The position numbers and the translations under genes are program-made. From a virus: a DNA stretch of 23,074 nucleotides. Position 1 is the first letter of the stretch; the number at the start of each line of letters is the position of its first letter. Below, piece by piece: positions 4,767 to 19,931 of the stretch. The stretch is from positions 1-23,074 of the IMG/VR virus record IMGVR_UViG_3300043446_001893. One strand, given 5' to 3'. The notes under the pieces were generated by a model. The model worked only from the letters and a program-made list of their open reading frames with translations. It was not told where the DNA came from and ran no database searches.

Positions 4767-5777
4767 TTAGAGCGAGAGCGAGTTGTAGCCAGTCACCTTA
4801 GTCATCGACTTCGGCTTCGTGGAAACAAGCTCAGCAATGTTGATGACCGCGCCGACATAGCCAATCTGCCAGTTAGGCAGAGTGCTTTCGAAGCCCGTGA
4901 ACACGAACTGGCCCTGCTCATGGATGTAGAGCGAGAGATAGTTGGTGTTGAGGAGGTACAAAGTACCTTCTGGGCAGTACGGGTCAGGATAGATCGGAAC
5001 GCCAGCGACCATGAGGGCGCGGAACGCCGACTGCGGGCCATTGGCATCGCCATCAAAGCCCGAGCCGGGGGTGATGACGTATTGTTCCTGACCAACGTAG
5101 TCCTGCGCGAGGAGCGTCCATGTGCCGAAGCCGCAGACACCGAATGTCGGAACTTCTGCGCCGTTCTTAACCGTGCCAGAGATGTACTGAAGCACGTTCT
5201 GACGGGTCGGGTTCACGTTACCAGCAGCGTACTGCTTCGACTTCCACCAAGCGTAGGTGTTACGGTTGATGTTGCCGTAAGTCGCCGTGCCCGTGCCATC
5301 ATCAACAGCCGCCGGAAGGCCCGTGAAAGCCTGCGTATTGGTGGTGTTGTTGTAGAGAGCGGTCGCCATAGCGTCCATCATCACGTTCGTCGCGTCGTTC
5401 ATACGAGCTTCGATGAGCGGGATGATTGCATGATCCTGCTGGACAGCGCCTTCCATGCCGAGGAACGGCACAGGAGAGATCATGAGCTTGAGGTTGAACT
5501 CAGCGTTGTAAGCACCCTGCTGGACGGCAGGCTGTGCGAACGAACCCGAGTAGTCAGACCATTGAGCGTTGACGAACTGAGCGCCCTGCACCGGAACCGT
5601 GACTGACGAGACACCGCCCGTTGCAGTCTGCGAGTTCGCAATCAGAGCCGCCATCAGCGGCGTCGAGTTGTAGATTTGGACCACCATCTTGGGGATGAAG
5701 GCCCGGCGGGTCACATACGTCAGTTCTGTGTACTGATTAGTGCCCGATGCGGGGAGAATACCGCCTCCGATAGGCAT
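4767..5777 (-). CDS. major capsid protein, HK97 fold
   Basis: 336 residues. It forms the icosahedral shell. Features typical of this capsid family are an N-terminal strand and helix leading into FIPKMVVQIYNSTPLMAAL (about 28-46), a spine-helix region around NDATNVMMDAMATALYNNTT, a GLPAAVDDGTGTATYGNINR stretch, then AFRALMVAGVPIYPDPYCPE and a closing beta domain. No long N-terminal delta domain is present. That agrees with a separate scaffold gene immediately upstream in the operon. The start carries a good Shine-Dalgarno, GAGGTGA. The order scaffold, capsid, decoration is standard for such phages. I am confident of the capsid role; the precise subfamily was not tested. Confidence 0.88.
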   Translation of the reverse strand: MPIGGGILPASGTNQYTELTYVTRRAFIPKMVVQIYNSTPLMAALIANSQTATGGVSSVTVPVQGAQFVNAQWSDYSGSFAQPAVQQGAYNAEFNLKLMISPVPFLGMEGAVQQDHAIIPLIEARMNDATNVMMDAMATALYNNTTNTQAFTGLPAAVDDGTGTATYGNINRNTYAWWKSKQYAAGNVNPTRQNVLQYISGTVKNGAEVPTFGVCGFGTWTLLAQDYVGQEQYVITPGSGFDGDANGPQSAFRALMVAGVPIYPDPYCPEGTLYLLNTNYLSLYIHEQGQFVFTGFESTLPNWQIGYVGAVINIAELVSTKPKSMTKVTGYNSLSL

Positions 5778-5827: not shown

Positions 5828-6373
5828 TCAAAACCCAATCGGACGCGGGTTCTTCCGCAATTCCGTCAGAGCCTTGGCAGCTTCGTCTCGCGCAGCAGAA
5901 GCAGGATTTTTCCAGAACTTAGACAGCGAGTTACGAGCGCTTTCGTCCAAGACATTCCGGTTGTAGGAAGTCTGAGGAGTAGGCGTCGCAGCCTGCCGCA
6001 TATAGTTCCAGTAATCTGCCGCCGCTTCGTGGTTGGTAATGCCCTTTTCGAGCATAACCTTTTCCACTTCCGCGATTTCATCTTCGGATTTCACCTTGCC
6101 AGTTTTAATGAGATCGCGACGACGACGTTCCAAGGTGTCGAGCGCTTCGCGTTCACGCAGCTTACCTTCAAGCTGGTTTACGCGCTCACGTTCCTGTTCA
6201 AGTTTTGCCGCCACTTCATCTTTCAAGTCGATGGCGTCAATCGTGAGAGAAGGACGAGCCTTCTTGGTAAGGCGCAGGAACGCCTCCCGAGTATCTGGGT
6301 TGTCAGCCAGTTCCCGCGCAAGCTGAGCGAGTTCGTCGCGGGCTTCTGGTGTAAGGTCTTCGAGAGACGGCAT
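5828..6373 (-). CDS. capsid scaffold protein
   Basis: 181 residues, highly charged and predicted mostly helical. Residues about 65-115 (VAAKLEQERERVNQLEGKLR, then EREALDTLERRRRDLIKTG) form a coiled coil. A basic C-terminal segment (KFWKNPASAARDEAAKALTE, then LRKNPRPIGF) would bind the capsid protein. This architecture, and location just before the capsid gene, is the hallmark of podovirus and siphovirus scaffolding proteins, which direct procapsid assembly and leave before or during DNA packaging. Start ATG at 6373 follows GGGGA. There is no protease domain, so the scaffold is probably released intact or cut by another enzyme (inference). Confidence 0.8.
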   Translation of the reverse strand: MPSLEDLTPEARDELAQLARELADNPDTREAFLRLTKKARPSLTIDAIDLKDEVAAKLEQERERVNQLEGKLREREALDTLERRRRDLIKTGKVKSEDEIAEVEKVMLEKGITNHEAAADYWNYMRQAATPTPQTSYNRNVLDESARNSLSKFWKNPASAARDEAAKALTELRKNPRPIGF

Positions 6374-6591: not shown

Positions 6592-7074
6592 CTACATGGG
6601 CGGGGTCGATCCACCGGGCGGCATACCCGGTGGCATTGCGGGCGGCGCACCAGCGCCCATCGGCGCGGGCGGTGCAGGCATAGGAGGCGCACCAGCGGGG
6701 GCCGAGCCACCCGGCTGCATACCAGCCGCCTGCGGGAGATTGTTGAGAAGCTGCATGATCTCAGCAGCCTGCAACTCGTCTGTCTTTTGCTTCTTCGCGC
6801 CAATGATAGAGGTCAGAGAGTTCAGAGCCGACATGAGTTTGCGGCCTTCCGGTGTGGAAGAACCGATTTGTGGAAGCGAGCGTTCCAGAAGATCAAGCGC
6901 CATGCTGACGTTAATCATGGCTGCTTCGCGTTCACCAGCCTTTGGTTCCGGCGTTGCCATAGGCGACGGCATCGGAGGCGGTGTTTCTGAGGCAGGAGGC
7001 GGGGCCATAGCGTCGCCACCCGTAGGAGCGGGACCACCCTGTGCCATCAACTGCATAATGTCCTGATCGGCCAT
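6592..7074 (-). CDS. Pro/Met/Gly-rich hypothetical head-region protein
   Basis: 160 residues. A disordered Pro-rich segment (MADQDIMQLMAQGGPAPTGG, then APPPASETPPPMPSPM) precedes a helical core at about 48-112 (EREAAMINVSMALDLLERSL, KQKTDELQAAEIMQLLNNLP). After that comes a C-terminal Pro/Ala/Met/Gly-rich tail (GAPPMPAPPAPMGAGAPP). Proteins with this layout are common between portal and scaffold in related phages; some are minor virion components. Function is unknown. The start follows AAGGTG. The strong Pro and Met bias makes database matching unreliable. Confidence 0.65.
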   Translation of the reverse strand: MADQDIMQLMAQGGPAPTGGDAMAPPPASETPPPMPSPMATPEPKAGEREAAMINVSMALDLLERSLPQIGSSTPEGRKLMSALNSLTSIIGAKKQKTDELQAAEIMQLLNNLPQAAGMQPGGSAPAGAPPMPAPPAPMGAGAPPAMPPGMPPGGSTPPM

Positions 7075-7153: not shown

Positions 7154-7178
7154 TCAGACGAGTGGTGCTAACAATAAC

Positions 7179-7195
7179 GGGTCTATCCCGTTTAT
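7179..7195. promoter_or_regulatory. stem-loop AACGGG/CCCGTT
   Basis: AACGGG and CCCGTT pair around TCTAT, just after the stop of the last micro-ORF on the minus strand. The tail is T-rich only when read on the plus strand (TTTATTAGTT). It may be an RNA end or processing structure; terminator function in the direction of transcription is weakly supported. Confidence 0.3.
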
Positions 7196-7198
7196 TAG

Positions 7199-7237
7199 TT
7201 AGCGACGAGCCTTACGGCCCTTACGACCCTTACGCAT
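7199..7237 (-). CDS. micro-ORF, 12-residue basic peptide MRKGRKGRKARR
   Basis: A 12-codon ORF ending in TAA, with GGAG placed 7 bases before the ATG. Eight of 12 residues are Arg or Lys. It shares the 18-base block CGTAAGGGTCGTAAGGGC (RKGRKG) with the neighbouring 11-codon ORF, so one probably arose by duplication of the other. The frame is also open upstream to an ATG at 7300, which overlaps the TAA of that neighbour as TAATG. That form would be a 33-residue peptide with an MACGYGRAPFKPS start and the same basic end. Peptides this short and basic could bind and neutralise packaged DNA, as microvirus J protein does (inference by analogy). Expression is unproven. Confidence 0.5.
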   Translation of the reverse strand: MRKGRKGRKARR

Positions 7238-7299
7238 TGTGCGTCTCCGTTCTTGAGGGATGGATGGTTTGAATGGTGCGCGGCCATAACCGCACGCCA

Positions 7300-7335
7300 T
7301 TAGCGCTTGCCCTTACGACCCTTACGACGAGCCAT
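7300..7335 (-). CDS. micro-ORF, 11-residue basic peptide MARRKGRKGKR
   Basis: An 11-codon ORF with a textbook Shine-Dalgarno, AGGAGG, 5 bases before the ATG. That is stronger than most genes in this operon have, which argues that it is really translated. Seven of 11 residues are Arg or Lys. Its TAA overlaps another ATG (TAATG). It lies between the 14-codon and 12-codon basic ORFs, downstream of portal. Too short for homology search; possible role in DNA condensation or packaging is inferred from charge and from its place in the head block. Confidence 0.52.
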   Translation of the reverse strand: MARRKGRKGKR

Positions 7336-7372
7336 GCTGGCCTCCTGTTAGAGTAAGTGTCCCCAAATTCGT

Positions 7373-7417
7373 TCAACGGCGCTTGCCGCGACGCGAACGC
7401 TTGACCGACTTATACAT
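7373..7417 (-). CDS. micro-ORF, 14-residue basic peptide MYKSVKRSRRGKRR
   Basis: A 14-codon ORF ending in TGA, starting 3 bases after the stop of the 53-residue gene. GAGGTG lies 5 bases before the ATG. Eight of 14 residues are Arg or Lys, and there is no acidic residue. It is the first of three successive basic micro-ORFs. The spacing and Shine-Dalgarno argue for translation; function is unknown. Confidence 0.52.
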   Translation of the reverse strand: MYKSVKRSRRGKRR

Positions 7418-7420
7418 TTG

Positions 7421-7582
7421 TCACCTCACGTTCACACGTTGGTTTTGCCGTCTCGTCTGATCCTTACCGACGGTTCGGATAGACGATACGCGATACTGTA
7501 GGTTTGCTGGTTTTTGCTCGCGTGTCAATTCTTTGGCACTAAAGCGCGGTTGATCCCCGGTCATAGCCTGACGTTCAGCCAT
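7421..7582 (-). CDS. small basic hypothetical protein, 53 aa
   Basis: 53 residues starting MAERQAMTGDQPRFSAKELT and ending RRQNQRVNVR. The start codon overlaps the portal stop by 8 bases (ATGGCTGA), and AAGGAG lies 7 bases before it, so it looks like a genuine coupled gene. The protein is hydrophilic and Arg/Gln-rich toward the C-terminus, with no hydrophobic core or cysteine, so it may be disordered or nucleic acid-binding. It leads the chain of basic micro-ORFs after portal. No family is recognised. Confidence 0.6.
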   Translation of the reverse strand: MAERQAMTGDQPRFSAKELTREQKPANLQYRVSSIRTVGKDQTRRQNQRVNVR

Positions 7583-9191
7583 TTGCGGCTCCTTTTTTAA
7601 TAGGAGTGACGTTCTCAGCCTGCGGTTGCGGGGCAGCAGCGGCCTTTTTGAGCTTCTCTTTAAGCATCTGTTTCATGGGCGGGTCGATCAAGTCGAGCAA
7701 GCTTTCCTTGTCGATAGCGCCAGCTTTGAACAGATTGAAGGCCATAGACCGCGTATCTTCCATAAAGATCGGGCTATTCGAGTGGGCGTCCACCTTGACG
7801 ATGTAATCTTTGGTGAATTGTTCTGCGATAAACTTTTGACCGTCAGCATCTTTATAGTGCGTCGGGTCGTAGGCTTGGATCAGCTTCATGTAGAGCGTCG
7901 CCATCTTTTCCAATGCAAGTTCAACTTGCAGAGCGCGGCGCTTGGCGCGGGATGAGCCTAAGCGGGCAAGCTGTGATGCGTGACCAGCAGAGCGGACGCC
8001 GCTTTCACCACGACCAGACAGAACGGATGAGATGCCAGACGCTTCTTCAAACATTGCGTCGATCTGATTGAGTTGTTCATACAGATCAGCAGGCATTTGC
8101 GGCGCGAGACGATCAGCCTTTGCATTTGGCATATCGGTCGAAAGCAAGCCGCCCGGACGGTTCAACGCGAAGTTCTTTTCGTCCAAAATGCCAGTAAAGC
8201 CCATTAAAGCAGTCGGTGGGTTTACTTGCTTGGCAAGAAGATCAAGAATTTCGCCCATGCGCTTGTTACGCATCTGCTGGAGATAAATGAGGCGAGAAAC
8301 CTCAGATTGACCCCAAAAATAGTCAGGCATCGGGTTTGGCGTGATTTGAATAAAAGGATTTTCGCCTTTTAAAAACATGCCGCCATTTGGACGATCATAG
8401 ATAATGACATCCGGCTGTGCGCGAGTGACAACCATATAGTCTTGGATTTCATCATCCCAGACATACAGTTCCGTCATTTCAATAGTTTCTTCCTCAACCC
8501 GTGGCTTCATACGGTTGTAGCCAAACAGATCAAGGTTCACGTTGCCGTACATGGTCGGATCGACCTGAGACAGCACGATACGATCAACGCCGCTTGCAAC
8601 ATAGTTGCTTTGTGTCGGCGCAGTCGTGATGCGCGAGATAATGCTGTCGCGCTTCGGATGATTATACAGCCGAGCGAACAGGTCAGATTTTGTCATGTAG
8701 TAAGTGTGGGTGAAGGCTTCTTGCCTGTCATTGTGCGGAATGTCTTCACGCAGCACACCCATCATGGCCGGATCGACAAAGTATGGGAAGATATTACCGT
8801 TATGTACGATCAGCTTTACGAAAGCAGAGTTGAAGCACATAGCCCAATTGAGGGCGAGGCCAAACACATGGTCGCCGTTGCTGTCTGACCACTTGTCGTT
8901 GAGGACTTGAGTAAGACGCGGAACCTTCTTGTATTCGTATTCGGGAGCCGACGCGCCGAGATTGACTGCAAAGCGTGTGGTGTCAGCCGAATAGAGGAAG
9001 GCAACCAACTGGTCGATGTGCGGATAGATTTTGTTGTAAGCCGCAGGGGCTTCTTCCGGGCCAGCGCCAAAAAGATAATAGGAGCGAAGGCTTTCGTAGT
9101 CGGCCTTACGCTCCTCATAAGAAGTCTTGCACTTGCGAACAAGGTCCAGATAGAACTCTTCCCGATGGTTTAGTTCTGTCGGTATTCTCAT
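7575..9191 (-). CDS. portal protein
   Basis: 538 residues. The portal forms the ring at one capsid vertex through which DNA enters and leaves and to which the adaptor binds. The N-terminal half has the usual wing features (YNKIYPHIDQLVAFLYSADT, ALNWAMCFNSAFVKLIVHNG). The middle contains ENPFIQITPNPMPDYFWGQS and EVSRLIYLQQMRNKRMGEIL. A long helical stem follows, with GISSVLSGRGESGVRSAGHA, SRAKRRALQVELALEKMATL and an Ala/Lys-rich C-terminal barrel-like end. This matches portal proteins of short-tailed phages in length and motif order. It lies between the terminase group and scaffold/capsid, as expected, and starts with an ATGA overlap on the preceding gene. Confidence 0.88.
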   Translation of the reverse strand: MRIPTELNHREEFYLDLVRKCKTSYEERKADYESLRSYYLFGAGPEEAPAAYNKIYPHIDQLVAFLYSADTTRFAVNLGASAPEYEYKKVPRLTQVLNDKWSDSNGDHVFGLALNWAMCFNSAFVKLIVHNGNIFPYFVDPAMMGVLREDIPHNDRQEAFTHTYYMTKSDLFARLYNHPKRDSIISRITTAPTQSNYVASGVDRIVLSQVDPTMYGNVNLDLFGYNRMKPRVEEETIEMTELYVWDDEIQDYMVVTRAQPDVIIYDRPNGGMFLKGENPFIQITPNPMPDYFWGQSEVSRLIYLQQMRNKRMGEILDLLAKQVNPPTALMGFTGILDEKNFALNRPGGLLSTDMPNAKADRLAPQMPADLYEQLNQIDAMFEEASGISSVLSGRGESGVRSAGHASQLARLGSSRAKRRALQVELALEKMATLYMKLIQAYDPTHYKDADGQKFIAEQFTKDYIVKVDAHSNSPIFMEDTRSMAFNLFKAGAIDKESLLDLIDPPMKQMLKEKLKKAAAAPQPQAENVTPIKKGAANG

Positions 9192-11823: not shown

Positions 11824-12726
11824 TCATTGACCGGGGTTGTATAGTGTTACCCGTTTATTCACTTCTTCTTTTTGTGCAGCGTCAAGGTGAATGATCTTGC
11901 GGTTCTTGTTAGCAAGAGATTTGACGGCCAGATCAGCATTGCTGTCTGTATATGTGTCGATCTCTTCGTAATCTTTGTGGCCCTTCTGCTTTGCAGGCAC
12001 ACCGCAGCCGGGACAGAAACGCTTCACTTGATCCGAGAAGTCTGTGATGTGTTTATTCCACCAGCCTTCAGTCAGGGGCATACCGTGGTCTGTGCCGCGA
12101 GCCAGATCAAATGAAGCCGCGACCTCGCAGAAGTAAGCACGAAGCTCGCCCTTGTTCTGAACGATAGAGGCCGACCATTCGCGATTGATGTCGCAGTTAG
12201 CTATGCGGTCCCACATCTCTTGTTCTGGGTAGAGGTCTTTTACGGCTGTGAGAAGAGGAGCATGGTCAGAATGGCCGCGATAATTCCAAGCAACGCCGCC
12301 GTGGCTTCGAGCAGCGGTTGCCAAGTCAGTAAGTCCTTCTTCCGCACGTTGTTCTCCGTGGCTGTTCAGATTAAATGTGCCGAATGTTTTTTCGCAAAGC
12401 TCGCGATGTTTGAAGTAGTTGTTTGTCCAAAGCCCGCGCTGAAGTTTGTTGGAAACTTCTTCTTCAAAGATGCGGCATAGTTCTTCAAAGTTGCGGTGCA
12501 TACAAGGATTGCCGCCGATCATGGCAATGACGCCCCAGTAACCTTTGAGGCTACGCAGGGCCAGCCGGAAGTTATCGGGCGTAATTTCCCAGAAATGATC
12601 CTGATTTTCGAGCAATCGGGTGCAGTTAGAGCAAGCGAGGTCGCATTTGTTAGTCACATCAATGCAAATGATGTGCATGTTGCGAGGCCCGCGCATACGG
12701 GCAATAGCGGCATCTGCAATGCTCAT
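11824..12726 (-). CDS. radical SAM protein
   Basis: 300 residues. The signature CDLACSNC gives C28-x3-C32-x2-C35, the ligand set for a [4Fe-4S] cluster that cleaves S-adenosylmethionine. VIAMIGGNPCMHRNFEEL (67-84) supplies the GGxP-type SAM-binding element. Further cysteines at 178, 200, 238 and 241 (NCDI, YFCEVA, FCPGCG) could bind an auxiliary cluster as in SPASM/twitch enzymes. The start at 12726 overlaps the glycosyltransferase stop as ATGA and follows AAAGGA; a longer frame upstream is not needed. The substrate is unknown. Linkage to sugar-nucleotide and glycosyltransferase genes suggests sugar or glycan chemistry (inference). Confidence 0.8.
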   Translation of the reverse strand: MSIADAAIARMRGPRNMHIICIDVTNKCDLACSNCTRLLENQDHFWEITPDNFRLALRSLKGYWGVIAMIGGNPCMHRNFEELCRIFEEEVSNKLQRGLWTNNYFKHRELCEKTFGTFNLNSHGEQRAEEGLTDLATAARSHGGVAWNYRGHSDHAPLLTAVKDLYPEQEMWDRIANCDINREWSASIVQNKGELRAYFCEVAASFDLARGTDHGMPLTEGWWNKHITDFSDQVKRFCPGCGVPAKQKGHKDYEEIDTYTDSNADLAVKSLANKNRKIIHLDAAQKEEVNKRVTLYNPGQ

Positions 12727-13403
12727 TTGGTGTCCTTTGCCCACGGAAAGCCGTCTGGAAACTGTGCGCGTGTTTTGATATTGCCCTCGAAGAAGAACCC
12801 GCGAAGGTCGCGCTTCTCATTTAGGCGGTAGTTGAGCGTGTACAAGCCGGAGCAGGCGCTATCTAGCTGGTTAGCAACAAGAGCTTGATACACGAAGCGG
12901 TCGCCCACCATTAGCTCGCCCGTAGTCTTGTACCAGAGCGGCGCAATCTGCACGGCTATGTTGCGGTCCATCAGATAACAGTTGAGATCAATAAAGCCGC
13001 TATGATGCCCAAGACTTTCAAAGTCATCGTTGGCAAAGAAAGAGCCATCGACGTTCCGTAAAGCGCGGAGAGAATACGAGTAAGGTTTATCACCTTTGGC
13101 CTCCACCAGCTTTTCGATGTGGTTCGGCTCGAACCAGTTGTCATCATCCAGCCAGCAGATCATGTCTTCTTGGACAAGGAAAGCCGACGCGGCGACGATG
13201 CCGCCGTTCATCATGCCGTTGCCTCCTGTCTTTACTGGAAGACGGCAGATGAAAGTGTCTTCATTGTAGTAAATAAAATCAGGAACCACTCCATCAAAAA
13301 AAATGTAGTGCTTGCAAGGATGGGTTTGTGCGGCCACGCTGTTGATTGCCTGTTGAAGTTCTTTGCGGCCCGTAGTTGCCGTGACGACTGCGACTGTTTT
13401 CAT
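12723..13403 (-). CDS. family 2-type glycosyltransferase
   Basis: 226 residues. It has a GT-A fold start ([20 protein letters not shown], then [18 protein letters not shown]) and a clear metal-binding DxD site in [12 protein letters not shown] (D86-D88). The region [18 protein letters not shown] resembles the acceptor part of GT2 enzymes. No membrane segment is visible, so it should be cytoplasmic. It would move a sugar from a nucleotide donor to an unknown acceptor. It is ATGA-coupled to the UDP-glucuronate decarboxylase-like gene before it and to the radical SAM gene after it. UDP-xylose as donor is a reasonable guess from the neighbour but not shown. Confidence 0.82.
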
Positions 13404-14320
13404 TTCAGCACCTCACGGAAATAGGCTGCGGTCTTCTCAAGACCTTCTTTCAAGGTCACACGCGGTTGCCAATCAAGGGCGCATTTTGCCCTCATAATGT
13501 CTGGCTTGCGTTGTTTGGGGTCGTCCTGCGGCAAGTCCTTGAACACGATAGGGCTGAGCGAGCCTGTGACCTCTGTGACCATCTCAGCCAATTCAAGCAT
13601 GGTGAACTCTGTCGGATTGCCGAGGTTCACAGGGCCAAGCTGCTGGTCGTAGTTCATGAGCCGGATCAGACCTTCGATCAGGTCATCGACGTAGCAGAAG
13701 GAGCGGGTCTGGTAGCCGTCGCCGTAGATCGTGATCGGCTCGCCCCGCAAAGCCTGCACGATGAAGTTCGAGACGACACGGCCATCGTCAATAGCCATCC
13801 GAGGGCCATAGGTGTTGAAGATACGCGCCACTCTGACATCAATCCCGTACTGCCGTTCATAATCAAAGCACAGCGTTTCAGCCGCCCGCTTGCCCTCGTC
13901 GTAGCAAGCCCGAATACCGATAGGATTGACGTTGCCCCAATAGCTCTCGCGCTGCGGGCTGACGGTTGGATCGCCATAGACCTCCGAAGTTGAGGCTTGA
14001 AGAATACGGGTTTTGATTGCCAGACCCGCAAGCAGGACATTCACCATGCCCATGACATTGGTGAGCATCGTGCCTGTGGGATCACGCTGATAGGCCACCG
14101 GGGATGCAGGGCAGGCAAGGTTGTAGATTTGATCGTAGCCGCCATCAATCGGCTTTCGAACGTCCTGCGTGATGAGCTTCAGCCCCTCAAGGTCCACGAT
14201 GTTCTGCGGGCTACCCGTCGAGAAGTCATCCAGACAAGTCACATCATGGCCTTCCTTGACCAGCCGCTCACACAGATGCGACCCAAGGAAGCCAGCGCCA
14301 CCAGTTACCAAGATTTTCAT
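13400..14320 (-). CDS. UDP-glucuronate decarboxylase-like NAD-dependent sugar dehydratase
   Basis: 306 residues of the extended short-chain dehydrogenase family. It has the NAD-binding GGAGFLGS (7-14) and an active site in [10 protein letters not shown] (T111, E113). YDEGK gives the Y140-xxx-K144 couple, and [11 protein letters not shown] and [15 protein letters not shown] complete the core. The run [20 protein letters not shown] is typical of UDP-xylose synthases (UDP-glucuronate to UDP-xylose plus CO2); related dTDP-glucose dehydratases differ here. The length is full. GGGGA precedes the ATG, and the gene starts 14 bases after the tRNA. The stop overlaps the glycosyltransferase start as ATGA. 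The exact substrate is inferred. Confidence 0.82.
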
Positions 14321-14334
14321 GCTGTCCCCTAAGT

Positions 14335-14411
14335 TGGTTGCGGAGGCAGGATTTGAACCTACGACCTCTAGCTTATGAGGCTAGCGAGCTGCCGGACTGC
14401 TCCACTCCGCG
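14335..14411 (-). tRNA. initiator-type tRNA-Met (CAU)
   Basis: A 77-base cloverleaf with encoded CCA. The acceptor arm is CGCGGAG/CTCCGCA, leaving a C1-A72 mismatch, the mark of bacterial initiator tRNAs. The D-stem GAGC/GCUC keeps A11-U24. The anticodon loop is CTCATAA, and the T arm contains GGTTCAAATCC. The anticodon stem is CTAGC/GCTAG, so positions 29-31 read AGC with GCU opposite, not the usual run of three G-C pairs. The 5' end abuts the stop codon of the upstream gene, and the sugar cassette starts 14 bases after the 3' end, so the tRNA is probably cut out of the operon transcript. Confidence 0.9.
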
Positions 14412-15362
14412 TCATTTTGATTTTGAAATCAATTGTTCCTCATACGGAAACTCTTGAGTTTCTGTAGGTATTGATCTTTGTCTAGTTAGCAAATCCATCA
14501 TCATTCTCGTTTCAGCGTTGCGAGCTTCAGTCTCGCCTCCAAGGCGCTGATAGATTTGATAGTTGGACAGCGTTCTTTTCATTTCATTGGCTTTTGCGTT
14601 AATCGCATCGCGTTCTTTTTTCAACTTGTTTACTGCTTCATCAACTTTAGCCCAAGCAGCGCTGCGTTCAGCCAAAACCTTTTCAAAGTCTTCACCGCTA
14701 CCTTTTATGGCAGCTTGCAAACGAGGGGCAAATTCTTGCTCTATTTTTTCTTTGGCTTTGCCAGCCTCAAGAACTGCGTCAATCACTCTTGATGATTGAT
14801 TTATAGTTGCACTCAAAGTTGGAGCCGCATCGCCGCCTCCAGCCCCAAATCCCTCGCGGCGCTGGATCATGTGTTGAAGCTCATGGATCAAAGTTGCCTT
14901 AGCCTCATCAATGTTGCGACCTACCTTCAAAGTATTTGTTGCTTGATTGAAAGAACCAAGAACACCTTGTTTTTCTTCTTGTGGGGTCAAAGCCTGCAAC
15001 TTCACATTTTTCAACTGCGGATAATACTGAAACAACTCAGGATGAGAAAAAAGCTGTTCGATCTGAACGGGTTGTCCTTTGTGAAGGTTGGCAAACGCCT
15101 GCGGGTTCACCGTTGACTTGCTGTCATCAAATTCAAACCGCCAGTCACCTTCCCCCCCTTGAAACCAACCCGTTGTCTTGGGCGTCTTGGTTTCAATAAA
15201 AACTTCTTCAGCAGGCTTGCCCGCCGTCGCCATTTCTTTGGCCTTCTTAAGCTCTTTTAACGGAGCGCCCTCAGCCCCCTCACCGCCAAACATAATGGGC
15301 TCAACGCCCTCTTTCTTAGGACGCGGAGTTAAAAACTCAGGGCTTAATCCAAAAACGGGCAT
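14412..15362 (-). CDS. HELQH-motif protein (zincin-like, polyvalent-protein-associated type)
   Basis: 316 residues. Residues about 55-175 hold the conserved part: PKTTGWFQGGEGDWRFEFDD, LFSHPELFQYYPQLKNV and DEAKATLIHELQHMIQRREG. HELQH (160-164) is a zincin-type HExxH. This block is known as a module of large polyvalent phage proteins, often injected with DNA. Here it stands in a mid-sized protein with a long helical, coiled-coil C-terminus (about 190-275). ATG at 15362 is preferred over a GTG at 15371 because AGAGGTG lies 6 bases before it. The stop touches the tRNA. Peptidase activity and virion location are inferred, not shown. Confidence 0.68.
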   Translation of the reverse strand: MPVFGLSPEFLTPRPKKEGVEPIMFGGEGAEGAPLKELKKAKEMATAGKPAEEVFIETKTPKTTGWFQGGEGDWRFEFDDSKSTVNPQAFANLHKGQPVQIEQLFSHPELFQYYPQLKNVKLQALTPQEEKQGVLGSFNQATNTLKVGRNIDEAKATLIHELQHMIQRREGFGAGGGDAAPTLSATINQSSRVIDAVLEAGKAKEKIEQEFAPRLQAAIKGSGEDFEKVLAERSAAWAKVDEAVNKLKKERDAINAKANEMKRTLSNYQIYQRLGGETEARNAETRMMMDLLTRQRSIPTETQEFPYEEQLISKSK

Positions 15363-15405
15363 GACCAACACCTCTGTTTGTAGCTCTCAGCATTAAACTA
15401 CAAAC

Positions 15406-19303: not shown

Positions 19304-19786
19304 TCAATCTACCTTCAATTCCCCACTTTGCAACGCTTTTATGAACGGCTTGGCCCTGTCCTGAGCCTTCGAAATGCCATGCAACACGCTGGTGTGGTCA
19401 AAACCGTTAGAGGCTTTCCCGATCTGCGGCAGGCTTAGATGGGGACACATCACGCGAGCGATGGCCCAACACAAATGCCTGACGCTAGATAGGCGTCTGC
19501 AACGGCTAAAAAGCAATTGGGGAGTTACATCAAACTCGCGGCAGATGATGTGGACAACCTGTTGATAACTCAGTTTGCCGTGACCCAATTTGCCCGTTGA
19601 AATAAACGCCCCGTTTTTTATTTCATACCTTAGTCTGATCCTGTGGACAATTACAGGATTGTTAAACGACAGCACAGGCTTAGGTATTTCAATAACCTGT
19701 GGTTTAGGTGCTGGCGGCTTCTTCGCTTCGATGCGCTTCCTCACCGCTTTGTAGTGGTTCTGAAGTTCCTCCACGGTGTCGAACAT
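19304..19786 (-). CDS. DnaA domain IV-containing DNA-binding protein
   Basis: 160 residues. A helical N-terminus and Pro/Lys-rich linker (AKKPPAPKPQVIEIPKPV) precede the C-terminal module at about 71-142. That module reads as DnaA domain IV: VVHIICREFDVTPQLLFSRC, RRLSSVRHLCWAIARVMC, and the signature GFDHTSVLHGI (128-138), close to DHTTV of DnaA. There is no ATPase domain. It may bind DnaA boxes to start phage replication or to compete with host DnaA. ATG at 19786 is chosen because the gap to GGAAAGGGAAA is then 3 bases, as in other genes; the ATG one codon earlier is possible. It overlaps the preceding regulator gene by 83 bases. Confidence 0.78.
   Translation of the reverse strand: MFDTVEELQNHYKAVRKRIEAKKPPAPKPQVIEIPKPVLSFNNPVIVHRIRLRYEIKNGAFISTGKLGHGKLSYQQVVHIICREFDVTPQLLFSRCRRLSSVRHLCWAIARVMCPHLSLPQIGKASNGFDHTSVLHGISKAQDRAKPFIKALQSGELKVD
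19549..19650 (-). other. candidate replication origin: cluster of DnaA-box-like 9-mers
   Basis: Read on the plus strand: TGTGGACAA at 19549-19557, TGTTGATAA at 19560-19568 and TGTGGACAA at 19642-19650. Each differs by one base from TGTGGATAA (reverse complement of TTATCCACA), and all have the same orientation. An A/T-rich stretch (CCGTTTTTTATTTCATACC) lies between the second and third. They sit inside the DnaA-domain-IV gene, as the lambda origin sits inside gene O. Confidence 0.45.
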
Positions 19787-19931
19787 CATTTTCCCTTTCC
19801 TCATACACGCTTAAGCCGACCGACAGGAGCGTTCTTAGGGCGTCCATTTCCGTGTCGAACTTATAGTTGAAACGAAACTCTCTAATCTTTTCCTGCAACT
19901 CTGGCGAGATCAACATTTGTTTGCGGATCAT
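19704..19931 (-). CDS. ribbon-helix-helix transcription regulator
   Basis: 75 residues. MIRKQMLISPELQEKIREFR followed by FNYKFDTEMDALRTLLSVGL has the length and pattern of an Arc/MetJ-type ribbon-helix-helix fold: a short basic strand that enters the major groove, then two helices. The remaining 30 residues are polar and probably disordered; that part overlaps the next gene in another frame. GGAGGTGA gives an excellent Shine-Dalgarno, so ATG at 19931 is preferred to an upstream one. It is the first gene of the leftward replication operon, beside an AACGCAA/TTGCGTT dyad that it may bind to control both divergent operons (inference). Confidence 0.75.
   Translation of the reverse strand: MIRKQMLISPELQEKIREFRFNYKFDTEMDALRTLLSVGLSVYEERENDVRHRGGTSEPLQSGEEAHRSEEAAST

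Follow-up and report, generated by a model that had tools for sequence, protein, structure and literature searches.

Conserved strings of very short arginine- and lysine-rich genes between the portal and capsid genes of an uncultured tailed-phage family

Behind its portal gene, the 23,074-base viral record analysed here (the window) encodes a string of very short, strongly basic open reading frames, and their evolution in relatives identifies the stretch as coding, with three separate genes of 11 to 14 codons. The phages that carry such micro-genes form a large, uncultured, mostly freshwater family of tailed phages, in which the genes span 10 to 21 codons (mostly 10 to 15) and number one to three per phage. 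The best explanation for them, to which we give about half our credence, is that they encode polycations expressed late, at the level of the capsid protein, which would bind nucleic acid non-specifically, likeliest the phage's own DNA.

The micro-ORFs and the head-gene cluster

The features of the window on which the argument depends are listed in the order in which they are read.

TerL: 11822-10062, minus strand
p161: 9673-9188, minus strand
Portal protein: 7575..9191, minus strand; 538 aa, PF23899 SU10_portal (E=2e-14), phrog_1216
p53: 7421..7582, minus strand; basic 53-aa protein, overlapping the portal stop, upstream partner of mA
Micro-ORF mA: 7373..7417, minus strand; 14 codons, MYKSVKRSRRGKRR, Shine-Dalgarno GAGGTG overlapping the p53 stop
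Micro-ORF mB: 7300..7335, minus strand; 11 codons, MARRKGRKGKR, Shine-Dalgarno AGGAGG
Micro-ORF mC: 7199..7237, minus strand; 12 codons, MRKGRKGRKARR, Shine-Dalgarno GGAG
RNA hairpin AAACGGG-ATAGA-CCCGTTA: 7174..7192, minus strand; directly after the mC stop, with compensatory changes in relatives
p160: 6592..7074, minus strand; first gene of the next (capsid) unit, Pro-rich, two predicted helices
Charged 181-aa protein: 5828..6373, minus strand; in scaffolding-protein position, before the major capsid gene
Major capsid protein: 4767..5777, minus strand; 336 aa, phrog_9953 major head protein (E=5e-35)

All three micro-ORFs are read from the minus strand and fall between portal and p160, a head-region gene of 160 residues. 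Lysine and arginine make up 8 of the 14 residues of mA, 7 of the 11 of mB and 8 of the 12 of mC, and mB and mC have an 18-base block in common, CGTAAGGGTCGTAAGGGC. A preliminary description of the window had reported three micro-ORFs of 14, 11 and 12 codons behind portal and p53, each with its own Shine-Dalgarno sequence (GAGGTG, AGGAGG, GGAG) and over half Arg or Lys, two of them sharing an 18-base block; we found exactly this arrangement. The third, mC, is nested in frame in a longer ATG ORF of 33 codons (7300-7199) whose start is without a Shine-Dalgarno sequence, and relatives keep only the short form. When the 23-kb window was shuffled 200 times under a Markov-1 model, basic micro-ORFs (ATG, 8 to 24 codons, at least 50% K/R, Shine-Dalgarno core) arose at 0.03 per shuffle, with a maximum of 1 in the 200, while the real 23 kb holds exactly three that satisfy the same definition, all inside 220 nt. 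Chance ORFs were rejected on these shuffles (0.03 per window) together with the frame controls and independent pattern scans described below.

Homologues of p53, of 39-55% identity, stand at the same place in most relatives. The p160 gene is likewise a conserved neighbour; its product had no Pfam or PHROG match, and its predicted model is helical and of low confidence (pLDDT 61), too uncertain for a fold search. The 181-aa protein had no family match, and its gene position points to a scaffolding protein. The major capsid protein is 86-93% identical across the phage family and distantly matches PDB 7f38, a putative major capsid protein (E=5e-5). Besides the portal match to PF23899 there is an adaptor match to PF24175, a combination that recalls Kuravirus, short-tailed and with an SU10-type portal and adaptor; the similarity is weak. 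Next to the terminase gene lies a cassette (11824-14320, minus strand) encoding radical SAM-like, family 2 glycosyltransferase and NAD-dependent epimerase/dehydratase proteins, and at 14338-14411 (minus strand) there is a tRNA gene, the only match in an Rfam scan; tRNA-Met is also present in relatives L190 and L192. Elsewhere on the minus strand, a 735-aa protein (741-2948) has tandem Gly-rich repeats, GTGYTSxPxVTISGGGG, as in large virion proteins of other phages, a 319-aa protein (14412-15371) has a Large polyvalent protein associated domain 23 (PF18838), and a 166-aa protein (19304-19804) has a DnaA C-terminal DNA-binding domain (PF08299).

Coding evidence and distribution among relatives

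Searches of IMG/VR returned 56 loci with the portal as query, at least 589 related contigs with a profile (80 kept) and 351 loci (80 kept) when a remoter portal of about 60% identity was the query. Among 250 distinct homologous regions, a total that takes in loci fetched by micro-ORF patterns, 56 have three micro-ORFs, 117 two, 38 one and 39 none, and the 211 regions with one to three encode 142 different peptides. An earlier tally of 130 regions had counted none in 7, one in 7, two in 66 and three in 50; one of its empty regions, L027, has an insertion ahead of p53 and carries its micro-ORFs after it. This insertion is an open frame of about 800 bases that splits the portal-p53 junction, with p53 and the micro-ORFs intact beyond. 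The peptides are variants of RK-x-RK-x-RK with G, A, S, T or H as spacers, and the first usually begins MYK. In the relatives compared, the micro-ORFs always lie between portal/p53 and the p160, scaffold and capsid genes, and of five long contigs the four that carry basic micro-ORFs have them only at the head locus.

Substitutions counted by parsimony on the portal tree favour silent changes in each gene. Peptides of the mA type come from 70 grouped-set regions; their genes show 55 synonymous and 43 nonsynonymous changes, the neutral expectation being 27% synonymous (P=9e-10). The 11-codon form of mB gave 21 and 16 (P=2e-4), the 12-codon form of mC 12 and 5 (P=4e-4), and the 10-codon form of mC, MRRKGRKARR, 9 and 0 among loci found by portal only; a pooled 10-codon group of mB (P=0.5) mixed two peptide forms and was left out. 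In a larger portal-fetched set, in which breaking multi-base changes into single steps and pooling same-length peptides raise the stop and acidic counts artificially, the true frame had 333 synonymous changes versus 188 expected, while the two shifted frames of the same DNA had 102 versus 184 and 108 versus 183. The initiation signals are conserved as well: in a grouped set of 190 ORFs picked by peptide sequence alone and not by Shine-Dalgarno sequence, 188 have one 5-8 nt before the ATG and two are without, and the two mB groups, 49 members together, have AGGAGG or GGAGG at that distance without exception. Conserved frames and Shine-Dalgarno sites with varying third positions, which the preliminary description had proposed looking for, are thus present in relatives; absence of frames or sites, the contrary outcome it had named, was not seen in 211 of the 250 regions but does describe two clades that fully lack the peptides. 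That the stretch is a repeated DNA motif or a chance GC-rich repeat rather than genes is very improbable, for although the block common to mB and mC would suit such an origin, the in-frame synonymous excess, the frame controls, the Shine-Dalgarno conservation and the existence of so many different peptides of one composition all oppose it.

Scans of 2.9 million viral contigs with two DNA patterns led back almost only to the same phages. MRRKGRKARR plus stop occurred in 60 stretches, and every newly fetched one encodes a portal of the family, and with it most of TerL, capsid protein and p160. A Shine-Dalgarno sequence followed by MARKxRKxRK, with no stop specified, recovered 78 new loci, of which 76 belong to the family; there the ORFs tallied end after residue 10 or 13, so their ends are fixed, and the other two loci are the start of an unrelated longer protein. 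A further polybasic pattern, MKRRKRxRK behind AGGAGG, had no match in any viral contig and so turned up no comparable strings outside the family. No such ORFs were found in Hydrogenobaculum phage 1 (31.6% in TerL) or in the portion examined of Vibrio phage VA-RY-3 (25.7% in portal). A literature search covering part of the field found neither the peptide strings nor a tailed-phage precedent. Four family members (L184-L187) occur as contigs in MAGs from three unrelated groups of bacteria, Balneolaceae, betaproteobacteria and alphaproteobacteria; these contigs may represent free phage that was co-binned.

In GenBank the close relatives number only two; both are metagenomic genomes from Manatee Spring, and each has two basic micro-ORFs. 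In the annotation of one, a single opposite-strand CDS covers most of the portal-p160 gap, and in the other, two opposite-strand CDSs lie over the p53-p160 gap; these calls (MW202825, L103:8246-8506; MW202753, L104:4740-5038) are probably spurious. The expectation that gene callers would miss the micro-ORFs was correct, both relatives having opposite-strand calls or none there. Head modules of tailed phages can carry conserved genes well below gene-caller length cut-offs.

Composition, expression and a proposed role

Taken together, the peptides consist of 39% R and 28% K (K+R 66%) and 24% G/A/S, with about 0.1% acidic residues, and the mean total charge per peptide set is +17. Codon changes in the curated set comprised 88 synonymous, 15 small-for-small, 9 Lys/Arg, 14 charge-changing and 0 acidic; relative to the synonymous rate per opportunity, charge changes occurred at about 0.11 and small-residue swaps at about 0.8. 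In the larger, noisier set the corresponding values were 0.30 and 0.96, and its single-step Lys/Arg rate, low as AGR codons are avoided, was given no weight. Selection guards positive charge and leaves spacer identity free, small residues swapping without hindrance, a pattern that suggests the peptides act electrostatically, with nucleic acid as partner.

Three properties set the micro-ORFs beside the capsid gene rather than the portal gene. Arginine codons are 48% CGT and 42% CGC in the micro-ORFs, 47 and 43 in the capsid gene, and 18 and 51 in the portal gene. At invariant Arg/Lys codons, silent substitutions are about as frequent as in the capsid gene or less so, and in most groups less frequent than in portal. 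The predicted duplex of Shine-Dalgarno sequence and 16S tail averages about -8.1 kcal/mol for micro-ORFs, a mean slightly favoured as they had to have a Shine-Dalgarno-like core, compared with -7.5 for capsid and -1.7 for portal. From codon usage, synonymous rates and Shine-Dalgarno strength we infer translation at capsid-like levels.

We propose that the peptides would be made late and at such levels, as unstructured polycations that would bind nucleic acid non-specifically. Their likeliest substrate would be the DNA of the phage itself, whose charge they would screen during packaging or once it is complete, in the way of microvirus J protein or protamine, and the copy number of one to three would set the peptide dose. 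The phage would benefit from such a role yet could replace it, given that two lineages dispense with the peptides. As arithmetic only, a charge of +17 at a hypothetical 400 copies each would come to about 7,000 charges, where a 35-kb genome has about 70,000 phosphates. Entry into the virion and condensation of DNA by the peptides are plausible, and the functional proposal of the preliminary description, that they condense or neutralise packaged DNA or line the procapsid, is the best single guess; a place in one gene run with the low-copy portal, though, is not in itself a sign that they are structural. The specific picture of two or three 10-15-residue polycations loaded into heads, a "protamine made one peptide per gene," is more tentative, and we would sooner bet against it than for it. 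If that picture is true, no conserved family of structural genes in tailed phages would be shorter than this cocktail, hitherto invisible to annotation, and packaged peptides would challenge the usual view that tailed-phage DNA is neutralised by ions and polyamines and not by encoded peptides. Lineages that naturally have or lack the peptides make the packaging question directly testable.

Polycationic composition, not exact sequence, is what is kept in adenovirus mu and baculovirus P6.9, from eukaryotic dsDNA viruses. The micro-ORF peptides resemble such protamine-like viral proteins (PMC6163548) in keeping composition over exact sequence, but whereas those core peptides are longer or made from precursors, these are direct products of 10-21-codon genes. 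The microvirus J protein guides and coats packaged DNA (PMC11281519, PMC11945456), and its gokushovirus counterpart in this comparison, VP8 of a T=1 ssDNA virus, has 38 aa and a C-terminal Phe buried in the capsid protein (PMC11281519). The analogy with J drawn in the preliminary description stands for charge and genomic setting, the product being very small, Arg/Lys-rich and encoded among capsid genes. It fails for length (10-15 vs 38 aa), for the buried C-terminal residue and for family: the present peptides are encoded by one to three separate genes of dsDNA tailed phages, and nearly all end in R or K, with no C-terminal aromatic or hydrophobic anchor. We claim no homology between them and J or VP8.

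Operon boundary, alternative roles and loss of the peptides

By gene order, the run closed by the micro-genes is TerL, p161, portal, p53, micro-genes and hairpin. The folding covered local hairpins. Among 17 sequences, chosen from examples, 87% of cells in the hairpin were paired and 17 were double-changed, versus 4.7 in shuffles (0/500), and slid-structure controls scored far lower. A second GC-rich hairpin lies about 15 nt beyond the first; neither matched an Rfam family. The capsid genes begin about 120 nt past the hairpin. The corresponding hairpin of some relatives terminates in a run of T with TTGACA behind it, and one clade without peptides has, to the eye, a TTGACA-17-TATATT-like stretch ahead of p160; no sigma-70 match was found in the window itself. 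The simplest reading would be that the micro-ORFs close a packaging operon and p160 opens a capsid operon.

This hairpin is the chief attraction of the main rival to DNA binding, that inert leader peptides are translated to regulate the hairpin, and hence the capsid genes, through attenuation or RNA stability. As with attenuator leaders, short ORFs with a repeated residue type precede a conserved, strongly covarying hairpin, and the capsid genes are close by. An attenuator leader, however, is a single ORF with slow or regulatory codons, and here there are up to three, each with its own strong Shine-Dalgarno sequence, favoured capsid-type codons and a capsid-like expression signature. Selection acts on composition, residue identities drifting while charge stays; the T-run terminator and TTGACA of one clade suggest that an ordinary boundary with a promoter of its own divides the units; and peptide-free lineages retain their capsid genes. 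We consider leader-peptide regulation unlikely.

Less likely still are assembly aids that bind acidic partners, the scaffold or p160, in the procapsid instead of DNA. The micro-ORFs do adjoin p160 and the putative scaffold gene, and the net charge of p160 is -8.9 without the peptides versus -4.0 with them (loci L040-L043, L050, L187 and L212-L257), a difference that comprises two independent contrasts only. Simple pairing would nevertheless predict the reverse shift, since p160 gains acidity once the peptides are lost, and in most members the protein is no more than mildly acidic.

Slightly below this we place binding to host or phage RNA or to the ribosome, tuning late translation. The smallest ribosomal proteins, eL41 and bTHX, are tiny and basic, similar to the micro-ORF peptides in composition and size, and the capsid-like expression signature would fit an action in their manner; yet the peptides are confined to the head gene cluster of one phage family, and they lack the conservation of exact sequence that a surface for binding the ribosome would require. 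Action on the host is improbable: short cationic peptides are often membrane-active, defence-blocking or nucleoid-binding, but these genes are always inside the late packaging and capsid cluster and their products have almost no hydrophobic or amphipathic content.

Against the preferred reading, charge screening on the phage's own DNA, count the lineages without peptides. The portal tree contains two peptide-free clades, each adjoining a clade with a single peptide, MNKTAKRGRKCRR in one case and of the MYGKMPKPMKKPPMRDGKRS type in the other. By this phylogeny two lineages lost the peptides stepwise, from two or three to one to none, so the peptides are not universally essential. In G001, a 39,021-base genome with terminal repeats from a peptide-free clade, there is no basic micro-ORF anywhere and no substitute. 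In another relative, L131, the portal groups with two-peptide phages and the micro-ORF set is of the three-peptide type, a mismatch that suggests recombination at the micro-ORF locus.
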